44,431 bases of DNA from the NCBI GenBank assembly GCA_004292515.1, contig RDXB01000089.1:1-44431 (forward strand), in the 5' to 3' direction. Made by a program: the position numbers and the translations under genes. Positions 2,514 to 21,114 of the stretch are shown here, piece by piece. The notes beneath the pieces were generated by a model. That model did not search any database. It saw only the letters and a list, made by a program, of their open reading frames with translations, and was not told where the DNA came from. Position 1 is the first letter of the stretch; each line of letters opens with the position of its first letter. Origin of the DNA: Oscillatoriales cyanobacterium (lineage in GTDB: Bacteria; Cyanobacteriota; Cyanobacteriia; CACIAM-69d).

Positions 2514-5500
2514 CTAGCGAGCTGCGGCCCGATCGGCCGTTAAGTGCTCAACCTTAGCAATCAGTTCCTGGGTCACATGGGGCTTCAGCATATAGTCCGC
2601 TGCCCCCAAGCTGAGGGCCACTTGCCGGTATTGGATGCCGCTACAGGAAGTCAGCAACATCACCGGCACTCGGGCCACGCCGGGATACTGCCGCCGCATA
2701 TTCAAAAATTCCAAGCCAGTCATCCGGGGCATTTCCAAGTCGGAAATGACGAGATCCACATCCGATCGCTGCCGTAGCAAGTCGAGGGCTTCTAGACCAT
2801 CAGCCGCTTGCAAAATTCGGTAGCCCTGGCGCTCTAGGGTCAGGCTCAACAAACGACGCTCTGTGTTGGAGTCTTCAACGACTAACAGGGTTTTGTGGGG
2901 GTTGGGGGTTGACGGGGGCGGACTGATGGCGGGGGCGATCGCTTCGGTGGCCGCAACCGTGACTTCCGGGAGCCGGTCAACCAGCCGGTCAACCAGCCGA
3001 TCAACCAGTGGCGGGGGAGCGGCCGCTGGTTCCAGTTGGGAGATTTCTGAGGGGGGATTGGTGGCGACGGGTAACGGCTCATCGCTACTAGCGAATGGGC
3101 CGATCGCCGTCGTCACACTGGCCGGCAAGGCCTCCGCCTGCACCAGCAGCTCATTGCCATCGATCGCCAATACCATCCGCCCATCGCCCAGCACGGTGCA
3201 GCCATAGATGTAGCGGGGAGCGGGCAGGGCCTCCGACAGTTGGCGCAACACCAGTTCTTGTTCGCCCACCACCCCATCGACTTCGATCGCCACTGGATAG
3301 TCACCGGCATCCATCAACAGCAGCGGTGCCAGCCGATTACTCAAAAACGGGGTAATTGCGCCCATGTCCGATCGCAACAGGCCCGGAGCCAAGGAACCAT
3401 AGCGCATCAGCTCCGCTAGCTTGCGAATCGGGATCGTGGTTTCCGGTTCATCATCACTGGCTTGCCATCGCAAAATCCGCTGACCGCCAAGCATTTGGGT
3501 CTGTTCTGGCTGGGGAATCAGGATTTGGCGCACACTTTCCGAGGGCAGGGCATAGACGGCCCGATCGGCTTGGCACACCAGCAGCCGGGCGGTCATCAAA
3601 CTGAGGGGCACGCGCAAGATAAACGCCGTGCCGCGACCGGGGCTGGACTGGATGCTGACGGAGCCTTTGAGCGATCGCAGTTGCGATCGCACCACATCGA
3701 GGCCCACGCCCCGACCCGACAGATCAGTGATTTTGTCAGCCGTCGAAAAGCCCGGTTCAAACAGCAGGTCAAACAATTCGCGATCGCTCAGGCTGCTCGA
3801 TCGCTCCGGGGCCAAAAAGCCCCGCTCGATCGCCTTTTCACGCAGTTTCTGGGCATCAATGCCGCGGCCATCATCGGCCACCCAGATCAACACATGGTTG
3901 CCCTGCTGTTGGGCCCGCAGTTCGATCGTGCCGGTTTCCGGTTTGCCCTGAGCCAGTCGATCGGCCACGGGTTCGATTCCATGGTCAAAGGCATTCCGCA
4001 CCAAATGCAGCAGCGGATCGTAGAGCTGTTCGATCGCCACCTTGTCGATCGCCACCCGTTCGCCCACCACCCGCAGCGTCACGGGTTTGCCATAGCGGCC
4101 GCACAGTTGCCGCACCAAGGGCCCAAAGCGATCGAACACCGCCGCCGCCGGTTGCATCCGCGTGTCCATCAAGCGATCGCGCACTTGCCCCAGCAGGCGG
4201 CGCTGCTTATCCAAGGTGGCGGCCGTCTGTTGGGCATAGCGCTCCACCACCTCAGCCGTGGAATCGATTCGATCGGCACTATCCAAAGCCGTATCGATCG
4301 CCTGACGCAACCCCAAATCACCCAACCCCAAATCACGGCGGCCCAAGTCTCCTAGGCTCGATCGATGGGGATCGCTGCCCAAGGACGACTGCTCCAGCCG
4401 ATCGCGCGCTTCACTCAGACAGCGACGATGCTGGCGTAGCCCTTGGCGAAATCGCTCTAGCGCCGATCGCAACTGTTCATCTTGCAGGCTTTGGCGGTTT
4501 TCATTAATCAGCAACTCCCCCACTAGGTGCTGGAGTGCCTGCAAGCGATCGATTTCTACCCGAATCAGCGCCACCGGGGCGATCGGGCGGTTGTCAGCCG
4601 GCTTGGGATCCAGGCGCTGAGGCTCGGGCGATCGGCCGGGTTCTGGGGTTAGCTCCACAACCGTCGGGGTCGCTATGGCAATGGGCGCAGGGGGCACAGG
4701 GGGCACAGGCATAGGGGTCGGCACTGGCCCCGCCAATGTCGATGTCTGCACCGCCACCGCCGAGCTGATCGCCTCTTCGTCGGTCAAGTCCAGCCACTCG
4801 GCCACCCCTTGGGTCAAGTCCAGGGCCTCGTCATCCTGCTCACCCACGCTCCCGCCCGCCAAAGCCAGCAAGGCCGCAGACACCTCACCCCCCCGCGTTC
4901 GATCGCCCGCCAAAACCGCCTGCTGGGCCGAGCGCCAATTGTCCAAAACCATTTTGGCCACCAACATGGGGCGATCGCCACTCACCTGCAACGCATGGAG
5001 CGCCGTTTCCGCGATCGCCTGGAACCCCGTCAAGCCCAAGGACTCACCCAGTCCCAAAAAAACTTCAGACTGGGTTGCCACCGTTTCAGCCGCCCGCACC
5101 GCATCGTTGGCTTCCACCAAGGCGGCTAGCTGCTCAATTCGCTCCAGCACCCCGGTTTCAAAAATCGACTGCACCAGGTCAAAGCCCAATTCTGCCGAGG
5201 TGGGCAACCGTTGCTCGCGCTCAAAGCAATCGCCCAGCAGGGTTTGCAGTTGGGCAAACAGGTCGATCGCCGTATCCAACACCTCCCGATCGACCTCGCA
5301 CCCCTGTTCCCACTGGGTTGTCAAGGCCAAACGCAAACATTCGTAGAGCTGAAACAGCAGCCCTTCCAGGTTGAAATCAATCACCGCTGCCGGATCAAAC
5401 AGGGCCCGAAACACATCTTCCATGTGGTGGGCGATCGTCGAAATGGTCTCCAAGCCGACGTTGGCCGAAGCCCCCTTCAGCGTGTGGGTCGCTCGCATCA

Positions 5501-5630
5501 GGGCGTGGATACGCTGCTTGGACGGATCATCGCGCAACTGCAACAAATCCGTTTCGATCGATCGCAGCAGGTCTTGGGACTCGCTGAGGAAATATCCGTA
5601 AGCTTCCTCGCGGATGGCAGGATCGAGCAT
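2514..5630 (-). CDS. CheA-type hybrid histidine kinase with C-terminal receiver (PixL/HmpE/PilL class)
   Basis: This is a cytoplasmic chemotaxis-type kinase. An N-terminal Hpt domain has phospho-acceptor His49 in RATHTLKGAS. A long Pro/Ala-rich linker follows, then a dimerisation region. The ATPase domain (about residues 520-670) has N-box HLVRNAFDHG and glycine boxes DDGRGID and GRGVGLDVV. A CheW-like domain spans about 675-835, and a receiver starts near 915 with Asp964 in VISDLEMPRMTG and the conserved Lys in YMLKPH. Translation probably starts at ATG 5630 (MLDPAIREEAYGYF, the usual CheA start); the frame extends upstream to 5681 through a Pro-rich stretch unlike a protein start. It is the last gene of a minus-strand cluster with an MCP 121 bp upstream, which implies the two work together. 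Whether output is phototaxis or pilus control is inferred from context. Confidence 0.93.
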   Translation of the reverse strand: MLDPAIREEAYGYFLSESQDLLRSIETDLLQLRDDPSKQRIHALMRATHTLKGASANVGLETISTIAHHMEDVFRALFDPAAVIDFNLEGLLFQLYECLRLALTTQWEQGCEVDREVLDTAIDLFAQLQTLLGDCFEREQRLPTSAELGFDLVQSIFETGVLERIEQLAALVEANDAVRAAETVATQSEVFLGLGESLGLTGFQAIAETALHALQVSGDRPMLVAKMVLDNWRSAQQAVLAGDRTRGGEVSAALLALAGGSVGEQDDEALDLTQGVAEWLDLTDEEAISSAVAVQTSTLAGPVPTPMPVPPVPPAPIAIATPTVVELTPEPGRSPEPQRLDPKPADNRPIAPVALIRVEIDRLQALQHLVGELLINENRQSLQDEQLRSALERFRQGLRQHRRCLSEARDRLEQSSLGSDPHRSSLGDLGRRDLGLGDLGLRQAIDTALDSADRIDSTAEVVERYAQQTAATLDKQRRLLGQVRDRLMDTRMQPAAAVFDRFGPLVRQLCGRYGKPVTLRVVGERVAIDKVAIEQLYDPLLHLVRNAFDHGIEPVADRLAQGKPETGTIELRAQQQGNHVLIWVADDGRGIDAQKLREKAIERGFLAPERSSSLSDRELFDLLFEPGFSTADKITDLSGRGVGLDVVRSQLRSLKGSVSIQSSPGRGTAFILRVPLSLMTARLLVCQADRAVYALPSESVRQILIPQPEQTQMLGGQRILRWQASDDEPETTIPIRKLAELMRYGSLAPGLLRSDMGAITPFLSNRLAPLLLMDAGDYPVAIEVDGVVGEQELVLRQLSEALPAPRYIYGCTVLGDGRMVLAIDGNELLVQAEALPASVTTAIGPFASSDEPLPVATNPPSEISQLEPAAAPPPLVDRLVDRLVDRLPEVTVAATEAIAPAISPPPSTPNPHKTLLVVEDSNTERRLLSLTLERQGYRILQAADGLEALDLLRQRSDVDLVISDLEMPRMTGLEFLNMRRQYPGVARVPVMLLTSCSGIQYRQVALSLGAADYMLKPHVTQELIAKVEHLTADRAAAR

Positions 5631-5751
5631 AGGGCAGGCTAGTCCGATGGGAGGGGGCGGGGGCGGGCGAGATCGCCCCATCGAAACAACGATCGCTACA
5701 ACGATCGCTCAACAGCAGCCTAGACCACCGTTGAGCGCGTATGGGTCCAGC

Positions 5752-8700
5752 CTAATTCACCTTGAATCGGCCGACGCTGGATTGCAACTCCTGGGAAATG
5801 GCCAGCAACGCCTCAAAGGAAGCCGCCAGGGCCACCGAATCCGCCGAGGTGCGATCGGCCATGCCCGCCACTTCGGTCATGGTGTGGGCCACGGCTTGGG
5901 CCTGTTGGGTTTGGGTGGCAGCGGTTTGGTTAATCCCCTCCACCAAGTTGCCAATCTGGGCCGTCACACTGACCATTTCGCTCAGGCTTGATCGCGTGTC
6001 GCTGACCAAATTCGTCCCTGCCACCACCTGCTGAATCCCGGCTTCCATCGCCTGAGACACCGCCTGGGTTTCTGCCTGAATTTCCTCGACTAGGGCCGCA
6101 ATTTCCGTCGTTGCATCAGCGGACTGGCGCGCCAGCGATCGCACCTCATCGGCAACCACCGTAAAGCCCCGACCATATTCGCCCGCCCGAGTCGCCTCAA
6201 TTGCCGCATTCAAGGCCAGCAATTGGGTTTGGGTGGTGAAGTTGCTAATCAGGCTGACGATCTTCGAGATCTTTTGGGACGACTCACTCAAGGAACGAAT
6301 CTTGCGGCCCGTCTCCGCCACCGTGTCCCGAATCGACAAAATTGCATCCACCGTCCGGTTCATGGCCGCATCGCCCTGCTGGATTGTCGTGGCCGCCTGT
6401 TGCACCGCCTGGGTCACCTGTCGAGCGTTTTGGGTCACGTCGGTGGTGGCCGCCGCCATCACCTGCACCCGCTCCACGGCGGCCGCCAGGGTCTGCGACT
6501 GGCGCTGGGCCTGTTCCGAGAGTTCGGCGATCGCGCTGGAACTGGTGGTGGAAGTCAAGGCCACCTTAGAAGCCGTTTGCTGAAGCTGCACCACAATTTG
6601 CCGCAGACTTTGCAGGGTGTTGTTGTAGGCATCGGCGATCGTCCCCACCTCGTCTTCGGTGATCGGTGCGCGCACGGTCAAGTCCCCTTCTAGGGCTGGC
6701 CGCACCGCCAACAGCAGCTTCAGAGCCTTGCTTTGCAGGTCTTCGCGGGCGGCCTTGTCGCGCTGGGAGGCTTCTTCGAGGGCGATCGACTTCAGCCGCA
6801 ATTCCTCTAGAATTTCCGCCTGTTGAATGGCCACCCCCAATTGCTCCGCCACCCGCAGACCCGTTTGGATATCGAGATCATCCCAATCGCGCGGGCCGCT
6901 GTTTTGGTAAATGGCCAACAGACCCCACAACTCCGTGCCCCTAAAGATCGGCACATGTAAATAGGCCTTTGCTTGCATCTGCTCCAGCACCGTGATGTAG
7001 CACTGGGGATAGCCCATTTTGTAGACATCAGGCACCCGGAAAAATTGCCCTTCCCGATAAACGCCGCCTTGGTTGTCCTGCAAGTAGGTATCCGCCACCA
7101 CATAGCCCCGCTCCCGCAGCCGCTGGAAGGCGTTGCACTCACTAGACACCTCTTGCAGACCAAAGGCCTTGGAATCCACCTGGATTAGGGGTCGCCAGCC
7201 GGAGCCGACGGATTCGGCCATGAACTGACCGCTCCAATCTTCATTGAAAGCGTAGATCCCGGTGCGATCGCACTGAATCAGGGCCCGCAGCTCACTGGTG
7301 GTGGCACGGAAAATGGATTCGAGATCCAAGGATTGGCGCACCTTGGTCACCAGGGAGGTGATCCCCCGCTCCCGATCGGCGACCCGCTCAAGTTGCCGCT
7401 GCTGACGGTTGAGCTGATCGATGTATTCCGCCTGTTGTAGAGCCAGGCCCAGTTGGGTAGCCAAGCGGGCCAGAATTTGCCCATCTAGCTCTTCCCATTG
7501 GCGAGTGTTGCTGTTTTGGTAAATGGCCAGCAACCCCCACAGGTCATTGCCTTTGAAGATGGGGACGATGATGTAGGCCTTGGCTTGGAAGCGATCGAGC
7601 AGTTCCAAGTAGCAGCGCGAGAAGCCCGCCTTAGCCACATCCGGCACCATCATCACTTCGCCTTGGCGGTAGTTGCCGCCTTGGTTGTCTTGCAAGTAGG
7701 TGTCGTGGACTTGGGCCCCTTGGCGAGGGCGGCCCCCGTTGCGGTTGTTGGGGTCGTAGTAACTGCCGTTGCGCAGGCTGTCGTCTTCGAGCAGCCGAGT
7801 CCAGCCAGAGCCAACCGCTTCGGCCACAAATTCACCACTCCAGTCCGGTGCAAACCGAAACACACTGGCGCGATCGACCTGAAAAATCTGGCGAATTTCT
7901 TGAACCGTGGTGTTGAACAGGAGTTGAATATCCAATGACTCGCGGATCTTGTTCATCACGGCCAACAGGGCCCGATCCTGCTGGACATTGCGTTCGAGCT
8001 GAACTTTTTGATCCTGAAGCTGTTGCAAATATTCTGCCTGCTGCACCGCCACGCCCATCTGTTGGCCCATTTGGGTCACGAGGTCGGTTTCTTCCGCCTC
8101 CCAGTTGCGGACGCGATCGTTTTGATACACCGCCAACAGGCCCCAGAGTTTGTCGTTGGCAATCACCGGGGCAATGATGTAGGCGCGACACTGGAATTGC
8201 TCCAGTAGCTTCAGGTGGCAGGGGTCATAGTCTTGGGTTTGAATGTCCGCCACCGTCAGGGTTTCGCCCTTGATGTAGCGACCGCCCTTGGTGCGCTCAA
8301 AGTAGCTGTCGCGAAAGCTCTTGCCGATCAGGGGTTTCCAGCCGCGTTCCATCGACTCCGAGACAAAATCGCCGCTCCAGTCTTCATTGAAGCGATAGAC
8401 GGCGGAGCGATCGCAGCTGAACAGAATCCGCAACTCATCGGTGGTGGTTTGCATGATCGTGTTCAGATCCAAAAATTGGTGGATCTTATCGACGATCATG
8501 GCGACGGCCCGTTGGCGGGCCACCTGTTTTTGGAGTTTGTCGATCGCCTCAAGCTGGGCAATCCCGCGCCCAATTCGATCGCTGAGGGCCCGCATCAGTT
8601 CCCGCTCGGCGATTGTCCAAGGGCGGGCCCCACTGTTTTGGTAGATGGCCATCAACCCCCACAGCCGATCGCCCTGGGTCAGCGGCGCAATCAGGTAGGC

Positions 8701-9318
8701 CCGGCATTGGAACCGCTCCAGCAGTTGCACATGGCAAGCGCTCAGGCCCCCTTGGTAGATGTCATCACAGGCGTAGAGTTCCTTGGCGCTGTAGCGTCCC
8801 CCTTGGGTGCTGCTCATGTAGCTGTCGTTGAAGCTGTTGCCGAGCAAGGTGGGCCAGCCGGGAGCTACGGCTTCGCTGACAAACTCACCTGACCAGTCGG
8901 GGTTGAAGCGGTAGACCGCGGCTCGATCGCAGCCCAGTTGTAGCCGCAATTCTTGGCAAATTCGCCGCAGCAGCTCATCAAGCGTTTGGCTGTTGTCGAT
9001 CGCCTGCTCCAGTCGCGGGTCTAAGGCGCGACCAGACTCGATGACGTGGCTAATCGGAGCGCCTTCTAGGGTTTCTAAGGCTGGGGCGATCGTGTCGGCA
9101 AAGTGCTCGATCTGCTCCATTTTTTCCATGACAAAACGATCGGGCCGGCCCGATCGCTCCAACTCTGCCTTGAGCGCATCGACCGCATCTTGGAACCGGC
9201 GCAAATCCACCACGGGCATGGGCGCGGGCATAGGCTCAACGGGCAGGCTCTGGGGCGTGCCATTACGGGATGAGCGATCGTCGCGAGCAGTCCGGGAAGC
9301 GTCAAAATATGCAGTCAT
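5752..9318 (-). CDS. Soluble MCP with four phytochrome/cyanobacteriochrome-like GAF domains (PixJ-like)
   Basis: The predicted protein has 1,188 aa and no transmembrane segment. Four tandem GAF domains each carry the DWSGxFVxES-type strand and a Cys at the bilin-attachment position: Cys195 ([11 protein letters not shown]), Cys367 ([11 protein letters not shown]), Cys569 ([11 protein letters not shown]) and Cys773 ([11 protein letters not shown]). In this family the Cys-His pair is the canonical bilin attachment site; GAF3 and GAF4 have Cys-Tyr. [10 protein letters not shown] occurs in GAF3 and GAF4. No clear DXCF motif is seen. A HAMP-like segment ([15 protein letters not shown]) and an MCP signalling hairpin with tip [19 protein letters not shown] near residue 1,043 follow. 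ATG 9318 is preferred over the upstream start at 9366. The gene lies between CheW and CheA genes, as in pixJ/hmpD-type clusters. Light sensing is inferred from the Cys residues; these could also be apo-GAFs. Confidence 0.92.
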
Positions 9319-9594: not shown

Positions 9595-11499
9595 CTAAAC
9601 GGCCGCCTGGGCACTCGCGCGGGCGATCGCACGGGGATTTAAGACCATGCTGCTCGCCTCACTGAGATAGCCCTGGACAAACGGCAACAACCGATCGGGA
9701 AAAAGCCCAGCGCTGGGGGGCTGAACATTAGGCGAGTCATGCCACTCGATGTCTTCAATTTGTGGAACAACTAAGCCCAGGTTTTGTGCGTCGCATTCCA
9801 ACACGATCGCCACCGCCATCGAGGTAGCTGTGAGGTTTGGTGCGATCGCCGGAAAGCCCACCAACTGGTTGAGGTCGATCATCCAGACAATTTCGCCCCG
9901 CCAGTTATACACCCCTAACACCGATTCTGGCATATGGGGCACGGGCAAAATGTCCGTAGCAGCAATTCGCAGCACTTCGCGAACTTCATCCACTGGCAAT
10001 AGGGCTGTGTCTTCAAATCCCAAATGGAAACGCAGGAAACGTTGGCCTTCTCCGGAGGTGGCCGGGGCTTCGGGAGCCAGGGTGGGCACTACGCCGCCAG
10101 GGTCTTCGCCTTGGTGTAGCCACTGACTGAGGGGATCCATCGGAATGGCGATCGGGGTGGCCAGGGTTGGCGCAGAGGAGGCTGCGGACTCAGGGGGCAA
10201 GGCGGGTTCGGGGGACAAGGCTGGGGCTACTCCGCTGGTCATCCCATTAGTCATCCCGTTAGTCATCCCGTTGGTGATCGGGGAGGGGCTGAATCCCGGG
10301 TCGATCGGCTCCATCGGCAGGGCCAATGGGGGGTCGGCGATCGCCGGTTCCTGGCCGTCAGTGGCCATGGCCTGGGTGGCAATATCAACCAATGCAGATA
10401 AGCCTTCTGCATCGAACAGATCCAAGTCATCTTCGTCATCCCAGCTCGAAAACGGGGACGCTGGTTCGTCGGCGGGGGCCGCGTTGTTGAAGTCGATGGC
10501 CGGTTCGATCGGGGAATTGACCCAAGCAAAGGGAGCCGATGGATCTAGCGCTGGATCTAGTGCTGGATCTATCGCTAGATCCAGGGTGGGATCGAAATTG
10601 GATGCCAAACTCGCTGCCACCTCTGGTTTCGGAGCCGGGGCACTAGCCGGGTTGGCTATGGTGGGGGCGGCCGGTGGGGGTTCGGTGCTTGTGTTCGTTC
10701 CTGTATTCGTTCCTATGTGCATTACTGGGAGCGGTTCTGGGAGCGGTTCTGGATCTGGTGCGATCGACTCTTCTGAGAGTGCATCGGCCGGTAGATCAGC
10801 CGCAAAATCGCCCAACAAATCGAGGTCATCAAAGCCCCCGCTTTCCTCCTCCTCCACGGTTGCGACCGGGGGAATGGGCAATGTATTCAAGTCAGGCTCA
10901 GGCACGGGGTCAGGCGCGGGGGTGGCTGGCTCGCCCGGGGCGATCGCCCCATTCCCAAGGGACTCCGCCAAGGCCAGCAGGGCCGATCGCGGATCGGGCG
11001 AGGTGGCTAGCAGTTGTGTCACCAAATTGGCTAACTCATCGGTGGCCGAGTCAGCAGCAGGCTCCGGTGCAGGTTCAGCAATGATGGCCGCAACGGGTTC
11101 GCGATCGGCGATCGGAGGCTCCTCGTCGGCCAGCTCACCATGTAGGTTGCGCTCTGCCACGGCCACCGCTGCATCATCCCCATCGAGATCGGGCAAATCC
11201 CAGTCCTCGTCTCCCGCCAAGTCCTCTAGGTCGTCGGTGGGTGACTGATCCGCATCAGCCATCACTGCCAGATCCGCTGTATCCGCCAGCTCGGCCGGCT
11301 CGGATAGCTCGGATGGCTCGGACAGCTCGGCGATCGCGGCGGATTCTGGTTCCAAGGTGTCTAGATCGTCGCCAAAGTCTAGATCTCCTGCAAACTCATC
11401 TTCAGACTCATCCTCCCACCCGCTGACAACGCCCAAATCCTGTTCAGTGGCGGGTGCTGGCTCCTGCCCAACAACGGGTTCAGGCACTTCAGCTAGCAA
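9595..11499 (-). CDS. CheW-domain protein with long acidic N-terminal region (downstream half of a split gene)
   Basis: The C-terminal ~150 residues form a CheW domain (GQRFLRFHLG, PVDEVREVLR, VLGVYNWRGEIVWMIDL), the adaptor that links MCP to CheA. The ~480 residues before it are an acidic, Ala/Pro/Asp/Glu-rich low-complexity region containing one helical module (DELANLVTQLLATSPDPRSA) of the kind repeated three times in the gene upstream. No ATG or good ribosome site lies near the 5' end. The only start candidates are TTG at 11499 and further codons up to 11565, where TAA at 11568-11566 closes the frame. Between 11565 and 11499 this frame reads an uninterrupted Glu-Pro run, while the overlapping upstream ORF reads Arg-Thr-Gly there. 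It therefore most likely is the 3' part of one gene with 11489-14239. Typical CheW proteins have only ~160-180 aa. Confidence 0.85.
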   Translation of the reverse strand: MLAEVPEPVVGQEPAPATEQDLGVVSGWEDESEDEFAGDLDFGDDLDTLEPESAAIAELSEPSELSEPAELADTADLAVMADADQSPTDDLEDLAGDEDWDLPDLDGDDAAVAVAERNLHGELADEEPPIADREPVAAIIAEPAPEPAADSATDELANLVTQLLATSPDPRSALLALAESLGNGAIAPGEPATPAPDPVPEPDLNTLPIPPVATVEEEESGGFDDLDLLGDFAADLPADALSEESIAPDPEPLPEPLPVMHIGTNTGTNTSTEPPPAAPTIANPASAPAPKPEVAASLASNFDPTLDLAIDPALDPALDPSAPFAWVNSPIEPAIDFNNAAPADEPASPFSSWDDEDDLDLFDAEGLSALVDIATQAMATDGQEPAIADPPLALPMEPIDPGFSPSPITNGMTNGMTNGMTSGVAPALSPEPALPPESAASSAPTLATPIAIPMDPLSQWLHQGEDPGGVVPTLAPEAPATSGEGQRFLRFHLGFEDTALLPVDEVREVLRIAATDILPVPHMPESVLGVYNWRGEIVWMIDLNQLVGFPAIAPNLTATSMAVAIVLECDAQNLGLVVPQIEDIEWHDSPNVQPPSAGLFPDRLLPFVQGYLSEASSMVLNPRAIARASAQAAV

Positions 11500-14239
11500 G
11501 GTTTCGGGTTCTGGTTCTGGTTCCGGCTCGATCGCCTCGGGTTCCGGTTCTAACTCGGGTTCCAGTTAGATCCGCTAAATCTGGATCGGCTAAATCCACT
11601 AGATTTAGATCCGCTAAATCTGGATCGGCTAGATCAGGTAAATCATCAGGTGTTGTGTCTGCGGCCGGTTCGATCGCAGGTTCAGGGATCACAACACTGG
11701 TTGGCGGGGTAGGAAGAATCGCGGGGGCCGGCTCGGGCGCTAACCCAGCCAAACGCGCGATCGTGGCGATCGCGCTGTTGAGGTCAAAATCACTGCGATG
11801 TTCGGCCAAGCTGGCCAATTGCGTAATGGCTGCCAACGCTTCCCGATGCCCGATCGCGTCGGAGGGGGCCGGCGCTGGTTGCTCGGCAGGCACGGCAGAC
11901 TGTGCAGCTTCCGGGGCCATATCTTCAGCGATCGAGTCAGGCTCCTCAGTCAGGTCTAGGGCCACCTCCTGATCAGCGGCCAAGGAGAAGATCGGCTCGG
12001 GTTCTACCTCATCCTCATGGCCGTCTAGCGTAGTCGGGACTTCGGGATCAGGCGCGTCATCTAACTCGATCGCTTCCTCAATCACCTCATTGATCATCAC
12101 CTCATCGATTGCTGGATCGGCCAAATCCTCGATCGCCAGATCTGCATCCTCAGGCGCGTCATCTAACTCGATCGCTTCCTCAATCACCTCATTGATCATC
12201 ACCTCATCGATTGCTGGATCGGCCAAATCCTCGACCAAATCATCGATCACCAAATCCTCATCCTCAGCGATGGGGGCAAGGTCTTCAACCACCTCATCCA
12301 CCGCCAGGTCAGCTAGCTCCTCGATCGCTTCGTCAATCACCTCGGGACTTTCATCGTGGACGATTGCCACATCTTCGATCACCTCAGGCATAGGAGCCGG
12401 GGCGATCGGCTCAGGCACAGGCGGACTAGCCAACAAACTCAGCCGCTCGATCGCCGTCAGGGCGCGGTTGATGTCGGCCGTGGGGTTGGAGGCCACCAGG
12501 GCGACCAACTGCGCGATCGCGTCGGTGGCTTTTTCGGCAACACTCACGCCGGGTTCCGAGTGAGCCGCCGTGGCTGGCGCGGTCTCCTCGGCTAATTCGG
12601 CGGGTTCCTCCGGTAATGGTTCAAATGGTTCAAATGGTTCAGCGGCCTCCCCGATCGCCTCCATCTCCAGTGCTAAATTCGGTTCGCTGTCTTCTGCCGT
12701 GACTGCGTCAATTGCGTCGGACTCTGCTGTGGGAGTGGGAGCCATTTCCGCAAGCGGCTCCTCGGCGATCGGTTCCTCAAGGGCTAATTCAGCAGCAGCC
12801 AAGTCTTCAACAGCCACTCCTTCAGGCTCAGGCAGATCGTCAGTCAAAATCTCAGCCTCGGCCGGGATTTCTGCATCCAAAGCATTGCTGGTTTGTTCGA
12901 TCGCTGCCCAATCGGCCAACTCTTCTTCGGTGAGGGCCAGGGCATCGGGGTCAATGCCTAAAAAATTCGCATCTTCTGGGTCAACTGGATCGATCGCCGT
13001 CGTTGCTGGCTCGGCGGTCAACTCTACAATGGCTAACTCCACGGCGGTCAACTCCACCGCAGTTGGCTCGATAGCAGTCGGCTCAATAGCAGTTGGCTCG
13101 ATAGGCTCGACGGCAATCACTGCACCCTGGGCTAGCTGCTCATGGTCAGTGCTGAAATCAGCGCTGATTTCAGCACTGATTTCAGCGTCGATCTCGTCCG
13201 CGATCGGTTCTGGGGCTATGTCTATAACCACCGTTCCATCGTCGATCGCCTCGTCCTTGGGTAGGTCTGGGCCGGGTTCGCCGGGTTCGCTCGGCTCATT
13301 AACCGCCACCTCGATCGACTCCAGATCCGCCGCGATTGGGTCAGCCTCAACCGCCACGGGCGCGATCGCACCCACCGCATTGACCAAAGAGGCCGCGGCC
13401 TTTTCGAGGCTGCTGGCCAAACCACTCAGGGCAACCAAGGTGGCTTGCAGTTGGCTCACTTCAGCAGCGGCCGCTTCTGCCAAAACTTGGCCGGGGGCAA
13501 TGGGATCGATCGCACCATCGAGACCCGTTGCGTCCGCGCCCTCATCCAAAACGCCGGCCGCGACTTCTGCGGACTCCACAGCCTCTGCGGACTCTGCGAC
13601 TTCTGCGGACTCTGCGACTTCTGCGGACTCCACAACTGCGGGCGCGATCGCCTCGGGTTCTGGCTCACTGACCGTTTCGAGGGTGAGATCTTCAAGATCC
13701 TGCAAGTCCTGCAAATGCTGCTCATCAACGGGCAAGGCGATCGGAGCTGCTAGGGAGTCGGCGAGTGTGGCGATCGCCTCGGGTTCTGGCAGCGCATCGA
13801 TCGGCTCCTCGGCCGGCGCGCTTGGCTGGGGGGGCGGGGTTTCCAGGGCGAGGTCAGCCGTCAGATTTGTGGACAACTCCACTGGGTCTGGGTCTGGGTC
13901 TGGGTCTGGGTCGATCGAGGGCAACGGCGGCAGGTCGATGTGATAGCACCACTTGGGCGATCGCTCTGTCATGGACTGGCCACCCACCTTGACTGCTTGA
14001 ATCACCGATCGATCCAGGCCGTTGATGGCTAACTGCTCAATGGTCGGTTCGATCGTCTCCAAAGCCAGCCGCGCCGAAGGAGCCTGCTCACCCGCTAACA
14101 ACAAATACAAACAGCCGTCCTTGAGGGCAGCCTTGACCGTAATCGTTGGCTCAAGGCGATCGCGAATCAACAGCGCGATCGCCTGGGGATTGGCGCTCAG
14201 GGCCTGCTGCGTAAGGATGATTTGTTGTTGTGCGTCCAT
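11489..14239 (-). CDS. Giant acidic Ala/Glu-rich repeat protein, upstream half of a split CheW-fusion gene
   Basis: The 916-aa frame starts at ATG 14239. Residues 1-105 form a compact domain (PQAIALLIRDRLEPTITVKA, LYLLLAGEQAPSARLALE, IQAVKVGGQSM, WCYHID) that resembles a small domain I recall from other cyanobacterial proteins; its function is unknown. The rest is strongly acidic, dominated by Ala, Glu, Asp, Pro and Ile, with three predicted helical modules: SQLQATLVALSGLASSLEKA, DAIAQLVALVASNPTADINR and EALAAITQLASLAEHRSDFD. A further module sits in the CheW ORF downstream. There are internal DNA repeats of 18, 39 and 102 bp. The last ~20 residues (TGTRVRTGTRG...) switch abruptly to basic/Thr composition, the mark of reading past a frameshift. 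With one base removed at about 11566 the frame runs into the CheW ORF, giving 1,547 aa. It could act as a long flexible scaffold (inference). Confidence 0.75.
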   Translation of the reverse strand: MDAQQQIILTQQALSANPQAIALLIRDRLEPTITVKAALKDGCLYLLLAGEQAPSARLALETIEPTIEQLAINGLDRSVIQAVKVGGQSMTERSPKWCYHIDLPPLPSIDPDPDPDPDPVELSTNLTADLALETPPPQPSAPAEEPIDALPEPEAIATLADSLAAPIALPVDEQHLQDLQDLEDLTLETVSEPEPEAIAPAVVESAEVAESAEVAESAEAVESAEVAAGVLDEGADATGLDGAIDPIAPGQVLAEAAAAEVSQLQATLVALSGLASSLEKAAASLVNAVGAIAPVAVEADPIAADLESIEVAVNEPSEPGEPGPDLPKDEAIDDGTVVIDIAPEPIADEIDAEISAEISADFSTDHEQLAQGAVIAVEPIEPTAIEPTAIEPTAVELTAVELAIVELTAEPATTAIDPVDPEDANFLGIDPDALALTEEELADWAAIEQTSNALDAEIPAEAEILTDDLPEPEGVAVEDLAAAELALEEPIAEEPLAEMAPTPTAESDAIDAVTAEDSEPNLALEMEAIGEAAEPFEPFEPLPEEPAELAEETAPATAAHSEPGVSVAEKATDAIAQLVALVASNPTADINRALTAIERLSLLASPPVPEPIAPAPMPEVIEDVAIVHDESPEVIDEAIEELADLAVDEVVEDLAPIAEDEDLVIDDLVEDLADPAIDEVMINEVIEEAIELDDAPEDADLAIEDLADPAIDEVMINEVIEEAIELDDAPDPEVPTTLDGHEDEVEPEPIFSLAADQEVALDLTEEPDSIAEDMAPEAAQSAVPAEQPAPAPSDAIGHREALAAITQLASLAEHRSDFDLNSAIATIARLAGLAPEPAPAILPTPPTSVVIPEPAIEPAADTTPDDLPDLADPDLADLNLVDLADPDLADLTGTRVRTGTRGDRAGTRTRTRNLAS
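11563..11568 (-). other. Apparent single-base frameshift joining the acidic ORF and the CheW ORF
   Basis: On the minus strand the acidic ORF reads GCG GAT CTA ACT GGA. Dropping one of the two A's gives GCG GAT CTA CTG GAA CCC GAG, i.e. Ala-Asp-Leu-Leu-Glu-Pro-Glu, which continues directly into the Glu-Pro run and CheW. The extra base sits at the edge of a 27-bp direct repeat. It could be a sequencing or assembly error, a real mutation, or a slippage switch. Confidence 0.7.
11566..11631 (-). repeat. 39-bp-period direct repeat inside the acidic gene
   Basis: A 27-bp sequence (TTAGATCCGCTAAATCTGGA and the next seven bases) occurs at 11566-11592 and again at 11605-11631. It encodes Ala-Asp-Leu-Ala-Asp-Pro-Asp-Leu runs. 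Its left edge coincides with the frameshift. Confidence 0.85.
12048..12234 (-). repeat. 102-bp-period tandem repeat inside the acidic gene
   Basis: Bases 12048-12132 are identical to 12150-12234 (85 bp, period 102 bp = 34 codons). They encode the duplicated segment with DEVMINEVIEEAIELDDAP. Exact identity implies a recent duplication or gene-conversion-like maintenance. Confidence 0.9.
13561..13634 (-). repeat. 18-bp minisatellite in the acidic gene
   Basis: Near-identical copies of TCTGCGGACTCTGCGACT follow in tandem and encode repeated Glu-Val-Ala-Glu-Ser-Ala on the minus strand. A neighbouring GGGTCT run at about 13882-13910 encodes Asp-Pro repeats. All repeat units are multiples of 3, so copy changes would keep frame. 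Confidence 0.85.
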
Positions 14240-14963: not shown

Positions 14964-16499
14964 TCACGTTTTATGATGCGTCTCGGTGGGGGTTGGTCGC
15001 GATCGATCACTAAGGCTGCTCGGAGACTTTGGGGGGGAATCGAGGGTCAAATATTTCTGAATCAGGGGAGCGATGCGATCGGAGCGCAACGGCTTGGCCA
15101 CAAAAGCCGAAGCCCCACTGAACTTAGCCCGCACCCGATCGATGGCCCCGTGATTGCTGGTGACGATCGCGATTGGAATGTGAGCCAAGGTCTTGACCCG
15201 ACGAAGTTGCGCGCAAATTTCATAACCGTTGGCGATCGGCATCACCAAATCCAGCAAAATCAAATCTGGCCGCTGTTCGATCGCCACTGCCAATGCCCTA
15301 GTCGCATCCATCACGTGGAAAAATCGACAGCCCAAACGATGCACCAACGGCTTGAGCAAACGCCCCACCATTGGATCATCATCAATCAACAGCACCAGCG
15401 GCGGCCGTGTTTTGGGCGCAGTCGCAGAGGACTCCGATGGCGATGACGCTGATGATAATGACGGCGATGTTGACGGTGACGTTGACGGCGATGCTGATGA
15501 TAATGACGGCGACAACTCCGCCGCCAGGGCTTGATTAAGCCCCACAAAATTTTGGGGAAGAGCAGACAGGGCGCGGTTTGAATCTCCGATCGCCGTTGGG
15601 ATGGGCTGGGTAACTCCCGTGATGCCCGCCGGTTGGTTGGCTTGGGACAATGAGATCGGGGCGATCGGGAGTGATGCCGGGGCGGAAGCGGCCGCCAGCG
15701 CCGATTTCACCGACGCTTGCAAGAATGCCTCTTGGGGCCAATCGCCCAGGGTCAAAAACTTCAAATTGCCTTGCCGATAGAGGTGATGCAGGATATGCAC
15801 CATGATCGGGAGCGGTTGCCGCATCAGCAGGGCCAAATCCCAGGTCGATCGCTGGCCGTTCAGCAGCGGAGCTAGGGTCAAAAACGTTGAAGACTCTTTT
15901 TGGGTAATGGCAGATGGCGACCAACCAACTTGATCAAGCTGGGGAGCGCGATCGGCCAAATTCGGCGACAACCCAACGGATTCCCACCGTTGCAGCAGCT
16001 TAATCGCCTCCTTCATCACCTCCGCCAGCTGATCGCTATCCAGCATTTGTTGCGAAGCGGCGATCGCCTCAGGCAGCGCTGGCACATATTTATCCCACTG
16101 GCAGCTCACGGACGAGTCCGCACTGGCCACCAGCAGCACCTCTTGGGCCACAGCGCCAATGATTGACCGGGCCACCTCCGAAGTCATCTGACCAGCAGCC
16201 ACCCCCGCCGCCAACCACCACACCTCCCAGAGAGGCAAATTGGCGGGGCGCATTTCCGTAGGCGCAAAGCTAATGGAGGTACGCTTTAATGCTCGCTGCC
16301 AGCGCCGCACCCGAAACTGCTGGTCGATCGCCCACAGCAACTGACCCCGCAAAAAAATTAAGCGCCAGCGAGCCTTGCCCTGGGCCAGCACCAGCGAGCC
16401 AGTAGCTTGGCGTTGGGCAATAGTTGTCAACATCCGCGAAATTTTGGTGGATCCCGCGCTCACCGGTTCCATTCCTGACTCCATCCGAGGGTTGGTCAT
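14964..16499 (-). CDS. PatA-type response regulator (DUF4388-like N-terminus, C-terminal receiver; PixG/HmpA/PilG class)
   Basis: The 511-aa product has an N-terminal PatA/DUF4388-like region (TGSLVLAQGKARWRLIFLRG, followed by LLWAID), a middle helical region, a Ser/Pro/Thr linker near residues 330-360, and a receiver starting about residue 365 with LLIDDDP, phospho-acceptor Asp417 in LLDLVMP and Lys in VAKPLRS. In cyanobacterial tactic clusters such proteins are the first gene and take phosphate from the CheA hybrid. ATG 16499 is chosen because GGAG (complement of 16508-16511) lies eight bases upstream; the frame extends to a TTG at 16520 that overlaps this site. The linker is encoded by imperfect GATGACGGCGATG-like DNA repeats at 15440-15515. 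It is probably the promoter-proximal gene of the cluster. Confidence 0.9.
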   Translation of the reverse strand: MTNPRMESGMEPVSAGSTKISRMLTTIAQRQATGSLVLAQGKARWRLIFLRGQLLWAIDQQFRVRRWQRALKRTSISFAPTEMRPANLPLWEVWWLAAGVAAGQMTSEVARSIIGAVAQEVLLVASADSSVSCQWDKYVPALPEAIAASQQMLDSDQLAEVMKEAIKLLQRWESVGLSPNLADRAPQLDQVGWSPSAITQKESSTFLTLAPLLNGQRSTWDLALLMRQPLPIMVHILHHLYRQGNLKFLTLGDWPQEAFLQASVKSALAAASAPASLPIAPISLSQANQPAGITGVTQPIPTAIGDSNRALSALPQNFVGLNQALAAELSPSLSSASPSTSPSTSPSLSSASSPSESSATAPKTRPPLVLLIDDDPMVGRLLKPLVHRLGCRFFHVMDATRALAVAIEQRPDLILLDLVMPIANGYEICAQLRRVKTLAHIPIAIVTSNHGAIDRVRAKFSGASAFVAKPLRSDRIAPLIQKYLTLDSPPKSPSSLSDRSRPTPTETHHKT

Positions 16500-17439
16500 T
16501 ACGGATGCTCCACGTTGCAATTAGCCGTATGAAATGGTTGTTTGATACGAGGGACAAATGTCACTGATGCACCGTGATGTCCAGCCAGTCAAAGCGACAG
16601 CCATGCTGACCACCCTAGCTCCCGAAAGAGCGAGCAGTGTGCTCCGTTGGAGGTTGATTAGATTAATAGCCTTAACTAAAAATTAAACAATACTTGCGCC
16701 CCTGCTACAGTCATTTTTAAACTATCCGTTGCAATGCTTCATGATGGTTATAGTAGACCTGCCAATCTTGGTCAGTTTCAGCACGGGTCAGCCTGAGCGC
16801 AAAACCACCTCAAATCCCGTCAGTACTTAGTACATGACAGTCAACGATCCGAGCTAAGACCATGGATTGGGATCTATAAATTTGGGGCAGCGGACTCGTC
16901 AGCAGATTGATACTGAGCCTGCACTACTGCTGAAGATGAATGCAGGCTTACGTCAGACCAATGGCCAGTAAGGGGCAATTAATCCTTTCATCGGTCAACA
17001 GTCATGATCAGCCATGTAGCTGTAAAGCTGATACATATGCCACTTTTTTGAAGTGAAGCAATATCTGTAAAGAAGTCTAACAATTTTTTTTCAAACTGCC
17101 GAGTCTTCTCAAGTTGGGAGGCTGACTCCTAGGGCAATCAAAAGGAGAATGACTCAGCCCAGAATAATGATTGAATAATGAGCCTACTTTGAAGTAGGTG
17201 ATGACCCCAAATGCGACTCCAAATTTGACCCCAAATTTGACTGCAGATCTAGGGAGTTGAGCTGAGGTTGAGCTGTCCCGATCGCTGATTTTTGCTCTTA
17301 ACCGCGAGCGATCGCCCTCAATCGCACTAGCTTGATCATGCCCAAGGGACTGGCTAGATCTGTCAAATCATGGCCATGAGAGGAGCGATCGAGTGGCGAT
17401 CGAGTCTTGATCGCCACGCGGTCAAATGGTGACCAAGGG
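16500..17439. other. Long spacer upstream of the taxis cluster
   Basis: About 940 bp without a credible gene, between the PatA-type gene and the end of the SUI1-type gene on the same strand. It is more AT-rich than its surroundings and should contain the cluster promoter and the leader of the PatA-type mRNA. Visible items are the hairpin CCTACTTTGAAGTAGG at 17183-17198 and a repeated CCCAAATTTGACC-like unit at about 17205-17245. No transposase or RNA gene was recognised. Confidence 0.5.
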
Positions 17440-19059: not shown

Positions 19060-21114
19060 CTAAGCAAAGGTCGTGCCCGTGGCCGAGCAGGCCCGATTGC
19101 GCCCCCGCGTCTTCGCCTCAAACAGGGCTAGATCCGCTGCTGCTACCAGACTTGATGGGTCGGTGTTGGCACGGGGGATAATGCTCGCTGCGCCCAGGCT
19201 GATGGTGACGATCGGGGAAACGGGTGAATAGGCGTGGGGAATTTGTAGCTCGCGGATGCTCTCGAGGATGCTGCTGGCCACGATCATGGCCCCATCCAGG
19301 TGGGTTTCCGGCAAGATCACCGCAAACTCTTCGCCCCCATACCGAAAGGCCAAATCACTCGATCGCTTGGCCGTTTGAGCGATCGCCCGGGCCACCTGCC
19401 GCAAACAATCATCACCAGCCAAATGGCCATAGCGATCGTTGTAAGTCTTAAACGAGTCAATGTCGCCCACTAAAATGGCCAAAGACGATTGTTGGCGCGT
19501 GGCCCGCTGCCACTCGCGGGCAAGGGCCTCGTCAAAGCTGCGGCGATTAGAAATGCCCGTTAGGCCGTCAAGGGTCGCCAGTCGTTCTAATTTGCGGTTT
19601 GCCATTTCCAAGCGCCGGTAGAGTTCTGCTTGCTGGATTGCAATCGCGAGCTGACCAGACAGTTGTTGCAAAAATTCTCGTTCCCAGGGTTGCCATTGGT
19701 GCGGGCGATCGTGCTGGGAAATCACCAAAAATCCCCACTGATGATGCTCTCCAGGGCGGCGATCAACCATCACCCCAGCCAAGCTAGCATCCATAGACAG
19801 GGGCGTTTTGGGAATAGCCTCACCATGCAAAATTGGCGTGGACAGAAGCGCTAAAACACCCAACTGTAAAGCCGCCTGGCGATCGGATTCATCAAAATAG
19901 GCATCAACGGTCAAATCATCAATACCCCAAACCTCTTGCGGCTCAAGGTGCAACAGGCGATCGAAACAAGCACTTTTCTTAAAAGCCGCATTCCAAACCG
20001 CCGTGTCATCCCCCTCATTCGGATCGATCGCCAACAATTCAGTCATCGGACTAGGTTGGGTGCGGCGGGCCCGCAAGTGGGGCTGGCGTGGGGCACAGTC
20101 TTGGGTGCTGTGAATCAGTTGTGCAGCGGTTTTTGGACCCACCCCATCGGCCTCCAACTCCACGTAGCGATAGATGGCAGTGCGATCGACCCCCAACACC
20201 TGTCGCACCGTCTGCACCGTGGTTTGCAGAATTTGCCCCAAATCCAGCGATCGACGAATTTGGTGAGTTACCTGACTGAGCAGTTGTTCCCGTTCCGCCT
20301 GCTGCCACAACAGCGATTCAGCCCGCTGGCGCTCCGTAATATCAGTTACAACACCGAGCAAATGTCGCTCCGACGAATTGGGCAAGAGTAAGGGTTTTTT
20401 AATGGTTTGAAACCATCGAACTTCCCCATTAGAACTGCGCCTTGGCTCCTGGGCAATATACTTTTCCTGAAGGGTTTCCAAGATAGTCTGCTCCTCGCGC
20501 TGGAATTGTTCAGCCTGCTTAAAATTAGGATTAATATCCGCTTCAGTTTTGCCCAACATACTTGCAGGCGTTGTGTTATAGAACGTGGCGATCGCCTCAT
20601 TAACCAACACAAACCGACCGTGCTCATCCTTGACAAAAATAAAATTAGGATTTGCATCCACAATCGCCCGCAGAAATGATTCTTGACGTTGCAGCGCTTC
20701 ACTGGTTTGGCACAAGTCATCCAAAATCTGCTGGCGTTCGATCGCATAGCGCAAAGCCCGCGACAGCAAATTGGGACGCAGCTCATCCTTAAGCAAATAG
20801 TCTTGGGCCCCCTCGCGGAGAGACGCAAGCCCCGTCGATTCATCATCGAGGCCCGTCAGCACCACAATCGGTACATCGGCCGCAGTCGATCGCACGCGCC
20901 GAATCGTGTCCAATCCATAGCTATCGGGAAGCGCCAAATCCAGTAGCACGACATCGTAGTGCCGTTGGCTCAGTAACGTCAGCGCGTCACTCAGTCGATC
21001 GACCCGTCGCCAACGAAAGCCTTGGGCCGTTAACCGAGTCAGCATGACTTCCAGTAATCGCGCATCCGTGGGATTGTCTTCCACGACCAGCACTTCAATC
21101 GCTGAGTCACCCAC
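19060..21114 (-). CDS. Response regulator with PAS, GAF and GGDEF domains (diguanylate cyclase)
   Basis: The 684-aa protein has a receiver (residues 1-125; Asp59 in VVLLDLALPDS, Lys in YLLKDEL), a PAS domain (about 150-275; AIVDANPNFIFVKDEHGRF, LGVVTDITERQ), a GAF domain (about 285-490; DRTAIYRYVE) and a C-terminal GGDEF domain with RYGGEEF near residue 590. The catalytic GG(D/E)EF motif is intact, so it should make c-di-GMP from two GTP. The inhibitory I-site RxxD is present as RSSD five residues before GGEEF, so product inhibition is expected. The GAF lacks the Cys-His bilin signature. It is a monocistronic-looking gene. Phosphorylation at Asp59 by an unidentified kinase would control it. 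Confidence 0.95.
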   Translation of the reverse strand: MGDSAIEVLVVEDNPTDARLLEVMLTRLTAQGFRWRRVDRLSDALTLLSQRHYDVVLLDLALPDSYGLDTIRRVRSTAADVPIVVLTGLDDESTGLASLREGAQDYLLKDELRPNLLSRALRYAIERQQILDDLCQTSEALQRQESFLRAIVDANPNFIFVKDEHGRFVLVNEAIATFYNTTPASMLGKTEADINPNFKQAEQFQREEQTILETLQEKYIAQEPRRSSNGEVRWFQTIKKPLLLPNSSERHLLGVVTDITERQRAESLLWQQAEREQLLSQVTHQIRRSLDLGQILQTTVQTVRQVLGVDRTAIYRYVELEADGVGPKTAAQLIHSTQDCAPRQPHLRARRTQPSPMTELLAIDPNEGDDTAVWNAAFKKSACFDRLLHLEPQEVWGIDDLTVDAYFDESDRQAALQLGVLALLSTPILHGEAIPKTPLSMDASLAGVMVDRRPGEHHQWGFLVISQHDRPHQWQPWEREFLQQLSGQLAIAIQQAELYRRLEMANRKLERLATLDGLTGISNRRSFDEALAREWQRATRQQSSLAILVGDIDSFKTYNDRYGHLAGDDCLRQVARAIAQTAKRSSDLAFRYGGEEFAVILPETHLDGAMIVASSILESIRELQIPHAYSPVSPIVTISLGAASIIPRANTDPSSLVAAADLALFEAKTRGRNRACSATGTTFA

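Follow-up and report, generated by a model that had tools for sequence, protein, structure and literature searches.

We present here an analysis of a receptor gene found in a 44,431-nucleotide stretch of DNA from an Oscillatoriales cyanobacterium (contig RDXB01000089.1; the whole stretch is called the window). With a probability of roughly 0.7 its product is a pix/tax1-like phototaxis photoreceptor, in which two single-Cys domains close to the red/green cyanobacteriochromes (GAF1 and GAF2) are followed by a domain of the insertion type lacking the second Cys (GAF3) and by an insert-Cys domain (GAF4). The gene, its domains and cysteines, the insertion, the operon, the chromophore genes and the conservation are seen directly, and the coordinates of the features are collected in Table 1.

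Table 1. Features of the receptor and of its gene neighbourhood (coordinates in the window; residues refer to the receptor protein)
Feature	Residues	Coordinates	Strand	Best match
PixJ/PtxD-type receptor gene, 1188 aa, soluble, four CBCR GAFs + HAMP remnant + MCP		5752..9318	minus	
GAF1: Cys195-His, 9-residue short loop, DSYM, Phe at Trp position	103-265	8524..9012	minus	PDB 6bhn, E 1.2e-44
GAF2: Cys367-His, 9-residue short loop, DSYF, Phe at Trp position	268-441	7996..8517	minus	PDB 6bhn, E 3.5e-53
GAF3: Cys569-Tyr, DTYL, insertion type without second Cys	447-643	7390..7980	minus	PDB 5zoh, E 6.3e-45
GAF3 loop with insertion, no Cys	507-538	7705..7800	minus	
GAF4: Cys773-Tyr, DTYL, probable insert-Cys type	649-844	6787..7374	minus	PDB 6bhn, E 2.4e-51
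GAF4 loop with insertion	709-742	7093..7194	minus	
Cys728, candidate second bilin-linking Cys in GAF4 insertion	728	7135..7137	minus	
MCP signalling domain	998-1152	5863..6327	minus	Pfam, E 5.7e-39
PixL-like hybrid CheA: Hpt, HATPase, CheW, C-terminal receiver		2514..5681	minus	
PixI-like CheW gene, giant acidic N-terminal extension, two overlapping ORFs		9595..14239	minus	
PixG-like response regulator: C-terminal receiver, N-terminal DUF4388 match under cut-off		14964..16520	minus	Pfam, E 0.0015

A single open reading frame of 1188 codons fills the segment from 9318 to 5752 on the minus strand, and the plus strand of this segment is riddled with stops; the first-pass annotation was right about one gene of this length at this place, its strand being corrected here to minus. 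Pfam recognized GAF in four stretches of the protein (family E 2.7e-86), and a weak HAMP remnant separates the GAF array from the MCP domain. A membrane anchor was sought across the whole receptor and none was found, the highest Kyte-Doolittle mean over 19 residues being 1.34, which bears out the earlier description of a soluble MCP. The top solved-structure match of every GAF is a cyanobacteriochrome (CBCR) GAF, and several of the closest structures carry the title methyl-accepting chemotaxis protein; since the best E values lie between 1.2e-44 and 3.5e-53, the resemblance of all four domains to CBCR GAFs is, by these matches, far beyond chance. The four bilin cysteines listed previously (195, 367, 569 and 773) are all present, each in line with AnPixJg2 Cys321; the first two are indeed followed by His and the last two by Tyr. 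Three further AnPixJg2 residues, Asp291, Tyr302 and Tyr352, are also kept in all four GAFs of the alignment, in a numbering consistent with the AnPixJg2 sequence. As in other receptors of the PixJ/PtxD type, CBCR GAFs are here fused to an MCP signalling domain. No Cys of the DXCF kind occurs in GAF1-4, whose motifs read DSYM, DSYF, DTYL and DTYL; GAF3 and GAF4 were rejected as DXCF domains, Tyr occupying the position.

Clustering with genes for CheW, CheA and PATAN/CheY-type regulators, the other mark of this receptor type, was found as well, with the provision that the DUF4388 match, taken by us as the equivalent of PATAN, falls below the Pfam cut-off. The genes follow one another on the minus strand in the order PixG-like regulator, CheW, receptor and hybrid CheA, and the CheW-receptor-CheA order is kept in all six relatives whose surroundings were read (L039 and L104-L108), two of which belong to the same genus. 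No separate PixH-type CheY gene was found between the PixG and CheW genes, in which the cluster differs from tax1 of Synechocystis. The genome contains one heme oxygenase gene and one gene of ferredoxin-dependent bilin reductase (Fe_bilin_red), four T2SSE-family ATPases and three MCP domains. The receptor sequence, the operon and the two chromophore genes support the initial proposal of two bilin-type GAF kinds that plausibly sense several colours.

Some features of the neighbouring genes were noticed in addition. The CheW gene of the window is broken, within simple repeats around 11545-11570, into two ORFs of 916 and 634 aa that do not share a reading frame, which reflects a genuine frameshift or a mistake of assembly; the gene is a single open frame of 1406-1836 aa in L039, L104, L105 and L107. 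In these four and in the window a giant acidic low-complexity extension stands ahead of the CheW domain, and Pfam gave no match to the extension in the window family; the frame is only 199 aa in L106 and 294 aa in L108, which represent two other families. Near the phototaxis cluster there is also a Receiver-PAS-GAF-GGDEF protein, a diguanylate cyclase (19060-21114, minus strand); c-di-GMP affects cyanobacterial motility.

The distance from the conserved Trp at the strand end to the Asp of the DXXX motif is 9 residues in GAF1 and GAF2, 32 in GAF3, 34 in GAF4 and 13-14 in the red/green references, so that GAF3 and GAF4 carry an insertion of about 20 residues ahead of DTYL. Compared with the nearest solved structures of GAF1-GAF4, the red/green CBCRs AnPixJg2 (3w2z) and NpR6012g4 (6bhn), GAF1 and GAF2 are short of four loop residues and of the Trp before Asp, while GAF3 and GAF4 add the insertion and the Cys-Tyr pair. 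Read from the alignment, this insertion is the main difference between the two pairs of domains. The division into Cys-His and Cys-Tyr domains proposed earlier holds, with the loop insertions and the second Cys of GAF4 (Cys728) having been overlooked in it; GAF3 and GAF4 cannot be kept as one kind, as only GAF4 is a candidate for a dual-Cys sensor, the insertion of GAF3 having no Cys.

For comparison, 261 distinct GAF rows, including 5 references, were collected from relatives matched by the whole protein, GAF3 and GAF4 queries and from 80 further regions chosen from the matches listed, so the survey, its insert-Cys set included, was picked by similarity to the window and is not a random sample. 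Rows with domain E above 1e-15, with poor coverage or nearly identical to others were not counted; three insertion rows in which the bilin Cys is missing were set aside, and six poorly fitting GAF-like rows were removed before a 157-GAF tree and are absent from later counts too. In this similarity-selected sample, 141 of the 146 insertion-type GAFs having the bilin Cys contain a second Cys within the insertion. Cys-Tyr is present in 144 of them and Cys-His in the other 2, and Cys-His occurs in 78/86 short-loop GAFs with the bilin Cys; therefore, within the sampled sequences, the Cys-Tyr pair marks the insertion type. Five insertion rows have no Cys in the insertion: GAF3, the counterpart in its genus, and three more, of which L151 is doubtful because it resembles a red/green domain whose loop has been duplicated. 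By these counts, loss of the second Cys in insertion-type GAFs is rare but not unique. In GAF rows of L018 and L020, the insertion Cys is kept and the canonical bilin Cys is lost (Asp-Phe instead); bilin could possibly be attached there through the insertion Cys alone, or no bilin may be bound.

GAF3 is the unusual part of the receptor. It was not filed as an insert-Cys CBCR because its loop is free of Cys, and on account of the insertion together with the Cys-Tyr pair we classify it, from sequence, as a Cys-less insertion domain; the insertion of its counterpart in same-genus genomes is likewise Cys-free. It is improbable, although to be taken seriously, that GAF3 never had a second Cys, being derived from a red/green-type ancestor with an insertion of its own gained later. 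The counterpart in G004 has a short loop of 12 residues, and, once the loop is removed, the tree that joins GAF3 to red/green kin fits as well as the best one (log-likelihood 0.02 lower, p-AU 0.402). Since this tree fits insertion-type and red/green kin alike, a proof that GAF3 lost a Cys was not obtained. Against the red/green origin speak the typical length of the insertion and the Cys-Tyr pair, given the distribution of the two pairs in the survey, and we prefer to see in GAF3 an insertion-type domain. In the insert-Cys CBCRs UG1 and UG2, replacement of the second Cys by Ala gave no significant photoconversion, as stated in passages of PMC5240096. GAF3 and the three other Cys-less rows (one of them doubtful) would be natural versions of this mutant, and could reveal how, or whether, such a domain remains useful. 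No description of a Cys-less insertion CBCR was found in the literature searched, whose coverage leaves most CBCR papers of subscription journals outside.

Judged by their sequences, GAF1 and GAF2 are single-Cys CBCR domains from a lineage close to the red/green CBCRs. Extended red/green (XRG) CBCRs are defined in part of PMC11284453 by the WXDXXL motif, in place of which GAF1 and GAF2 have FNDSYM and FRDSYF, with no Trp, Met or Phe as the last residue and no DXCF Cys. Because the Trp is missing, their colours are not readable from the sequence, and red/green behaviour is uncertain. In the 157-GAF tree GAF2 falls into a group of the window receptor's family alone (support 100), apart from the far-red JSC1 group, and GAF1 is resolved only within its own family; a far-red, JSC1-type nature of these two domains, suggested by the equal loop length, was rejected as the tree does not join them. 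Of 291 genomes in the class, the window genome and three family relatives alone reach 80-100% identity to GAF2, the next match having 52%.

The domains of the receptor diverge at very different rates. Identity to the same-genus gene is 90% for GAF2 and for MCP, 73% for GAF3, 65% for GAF1 and 50% for GAF4, and the respective dN values are 0.057, 0.055, 0.212, 0.268 and 0.473. GAF2, the most conserved of the four GAFs, is as constrained as the output domain, which is 71-100% identical across the five family members compared (the same-family genome G005, from which no full receptor was obtained, is not among them). GAF4 is equidistant (50-52%) from all five proteins compared, which could result from fast divergence, the simpler reading, or from exchange. 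We consider it unlikely that GAF4 was acquired from another receptor through recombination instead of descending together with the remainder of the gene. Its low identity beside that of GAF2, GAF3 and MCP, its equidistance and two trees which set it outside the family's GAF4 group would favour such an origin, but neither tree is significantly better than the family-grouped alternative (p-AU 0.151 with 59 rows and 0.253 with 60 rows), and after excision of the loop GAF4 joins the family's GAF4 group with support 83/99 (71 rows; near-duplicates were left out of all these subsets). The closest potential donor among 388 genomes is at most 54% identical, and fast divergence explains the data equally well. 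A proven domain swap was therefore not upheld, as the tree tests do not reject common descent; dS is of no help in this decision because the values for GAF3 and GAF4 are similar (1.40 and 1.32).

The same rates could mean that the receptor has a single working photosensor, most likely GAF2, the other three GAFs being mainly structural or vestigial; dN of GAF2 is as low as that of MCP and those of the other GAFs are much higher, and PixJ1 of Synechocystis is described in part of PMC5812497 as binding PCB through only the second of its two GAFs. The bilin Cys together with the Asp and two Tyr residues mentioned above is, however, retained by all four domains, and we regard a one-sensor receptor as having a low probability.

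The case of GAF4 as a dual-Cys sensor is based on the insertion. Insert-Cys CBCRs are described in passages of PMC5240096 as having an insertion with a second Cys and DTYL, with dual-Cys photocycles between near-UV/violet and blue, green or orange, the second thioether to bilin C10 being responsible for the near-UV/violet absorption of the dark state. By the same description, Mbr3854g4, Mbl3738g2, NpF2164g3 and NpR1597g2 have the insertion and the second Cys before DTYL, matched by GAF4 with Cys728; their CXXR/K motif is replaced by CNAF in GAF4, and GAF3 has no Cys there. The distance from Trp to Cys728 is 19 residues, the commonest spacing (33 of 66 sampled domains), and that from Cys728 to the Asp of DTYL is 14, the commonest being 13 (30/66). 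Lys or Arg is the third residue after the Cys in 43/66 sampled domains; its absence in GAF4 was not taken as decisive because the motif is reported as poorly conserved among insert-Cys CBCRs (PMC5240096, in part). GAF4 is probably a near-UV/violet sensor, which may be drifting, as it has no Lys/Arg after the Cys and only half of its residues in common with the same-genus counterpart. That GAF4 is a single-Cys sensor with Cys728 idle could be supported by these same two features, but we find it quite unlikely, since Cys728 occupies the usual loop site, which is taken by Cys in 141 of 146 sampled domains at an overall Cys content of only about 1.6% of residues.

With GAF4 taken as a dual-Cys domain, Cys773 would hold the bilin, Cys728 would probably attach to bilin C10 in darkness, so that the dark state would absorb near-UV/violet light, and illumination would shift the domain to a form absorbing at longer wavelength. 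For GAF3, an insertion-type domain from which the second Cys is missing, absorption is expected in the visible range only. Photoisomerisation of bilin in the GAF array would alter the output of the coiled-coil MCP hairpin; CheW would pass this on to the neighbouring CheA, whose activity would be set in this way and which would phosphorylate response regulators acting on type IV pili. This route should operate by analogy with tax1 and ptx, as presented in part of PMC5812497; bilin binding, the colours, the second thioether, the direction of the signal and phototaxis are those parts of the scheme which we infer. The most likely working plan has GAF2 as a conserved channel for visible light and GAF4, adjoining the output domain, as one for violet. 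It is doubtful, and suggested here only tentatively, that the receptor unites three sensor types not yet characterised together, namely a violet insert-Cys domain, an insertion domain with naturally lost second Cys and a new single-Cys photocycle, and the family-confined Trp-less short-loop GAF1 and GAF2 with a photocycle of their own. If this were true, violet could be compared with visible light and the direction of steering chosen.

Neither the number of GAFs nor the general architecture is novel. PixJ-like receptors had been said to usually have one or two photoactive GAFs, which is too narrow, and four chromophores had been considered unusual; PtxD of Nostoc contains seven GAFs, and bilin is bound by at least six of these according to passages of PMC5812497, and three of the six relatives with the full gene read (L104, L107 and L108) have 5, 5 and 7. 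Chromophore number was therefore dismissed as a novelty: receptors of the PixJ/PtxD kind with four, five or seven GAFs occur among the relatives read, and four or more bilin GAFs per phototaxis receptor are not unusual. Like the window receptor, PtxD (NpF2164, Nostoc punctiforme) has several CBCR GAFs fused to MCP and a cluster with CheY, CheW and CheA (PMC5812497, in part). In two of its domains bilin is linked to a second Cys, NpF2164g3 being of the insert-Cys type (passages of PMC5812497 and PMC5240096). The window receptor differs in having four GAFs, with one insert-Cys and one Cys-less insertion domain. PixJ1/TaxD1 of Synechocystis tax1 shares the CBCR-MCP plan and the partners PixG, PixI (CheW) and PixL (CheA), as described in part of PMC5812497, and has two transmembrane segments, two GAFs and a blue/green photocycle, while the window receptor has neither a membrane segment nor a DXCF Cys.

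For specialists, the interest lies in the Cys-less insertion domain GAF3 and in the Trp-less GAF1/GAF2 lineage. More broadly, the combination of the conserved MCP with a variable sensor array allows the change of colour in a steering receptor to be followed within one family, whose arrays vary between two short-loop GAFs combined with two of the insertion type and, at the other extreme, an unbroken run of four insert-Cys GAFs. The latter arrangement occurs in the PixJ counterpart of the same-family genome G003 (L107, 6874-11199, plus strand), where four consecutive GAFs each have the second Cys, and this protein is possibly a dedicated near-UV/violet steering receptor. The seven-GAF counterpart in L108 (5908-11244, minus strand) mixes insert-Cys, red/green, DXCF and far-red-like domains and resembles PtxD.
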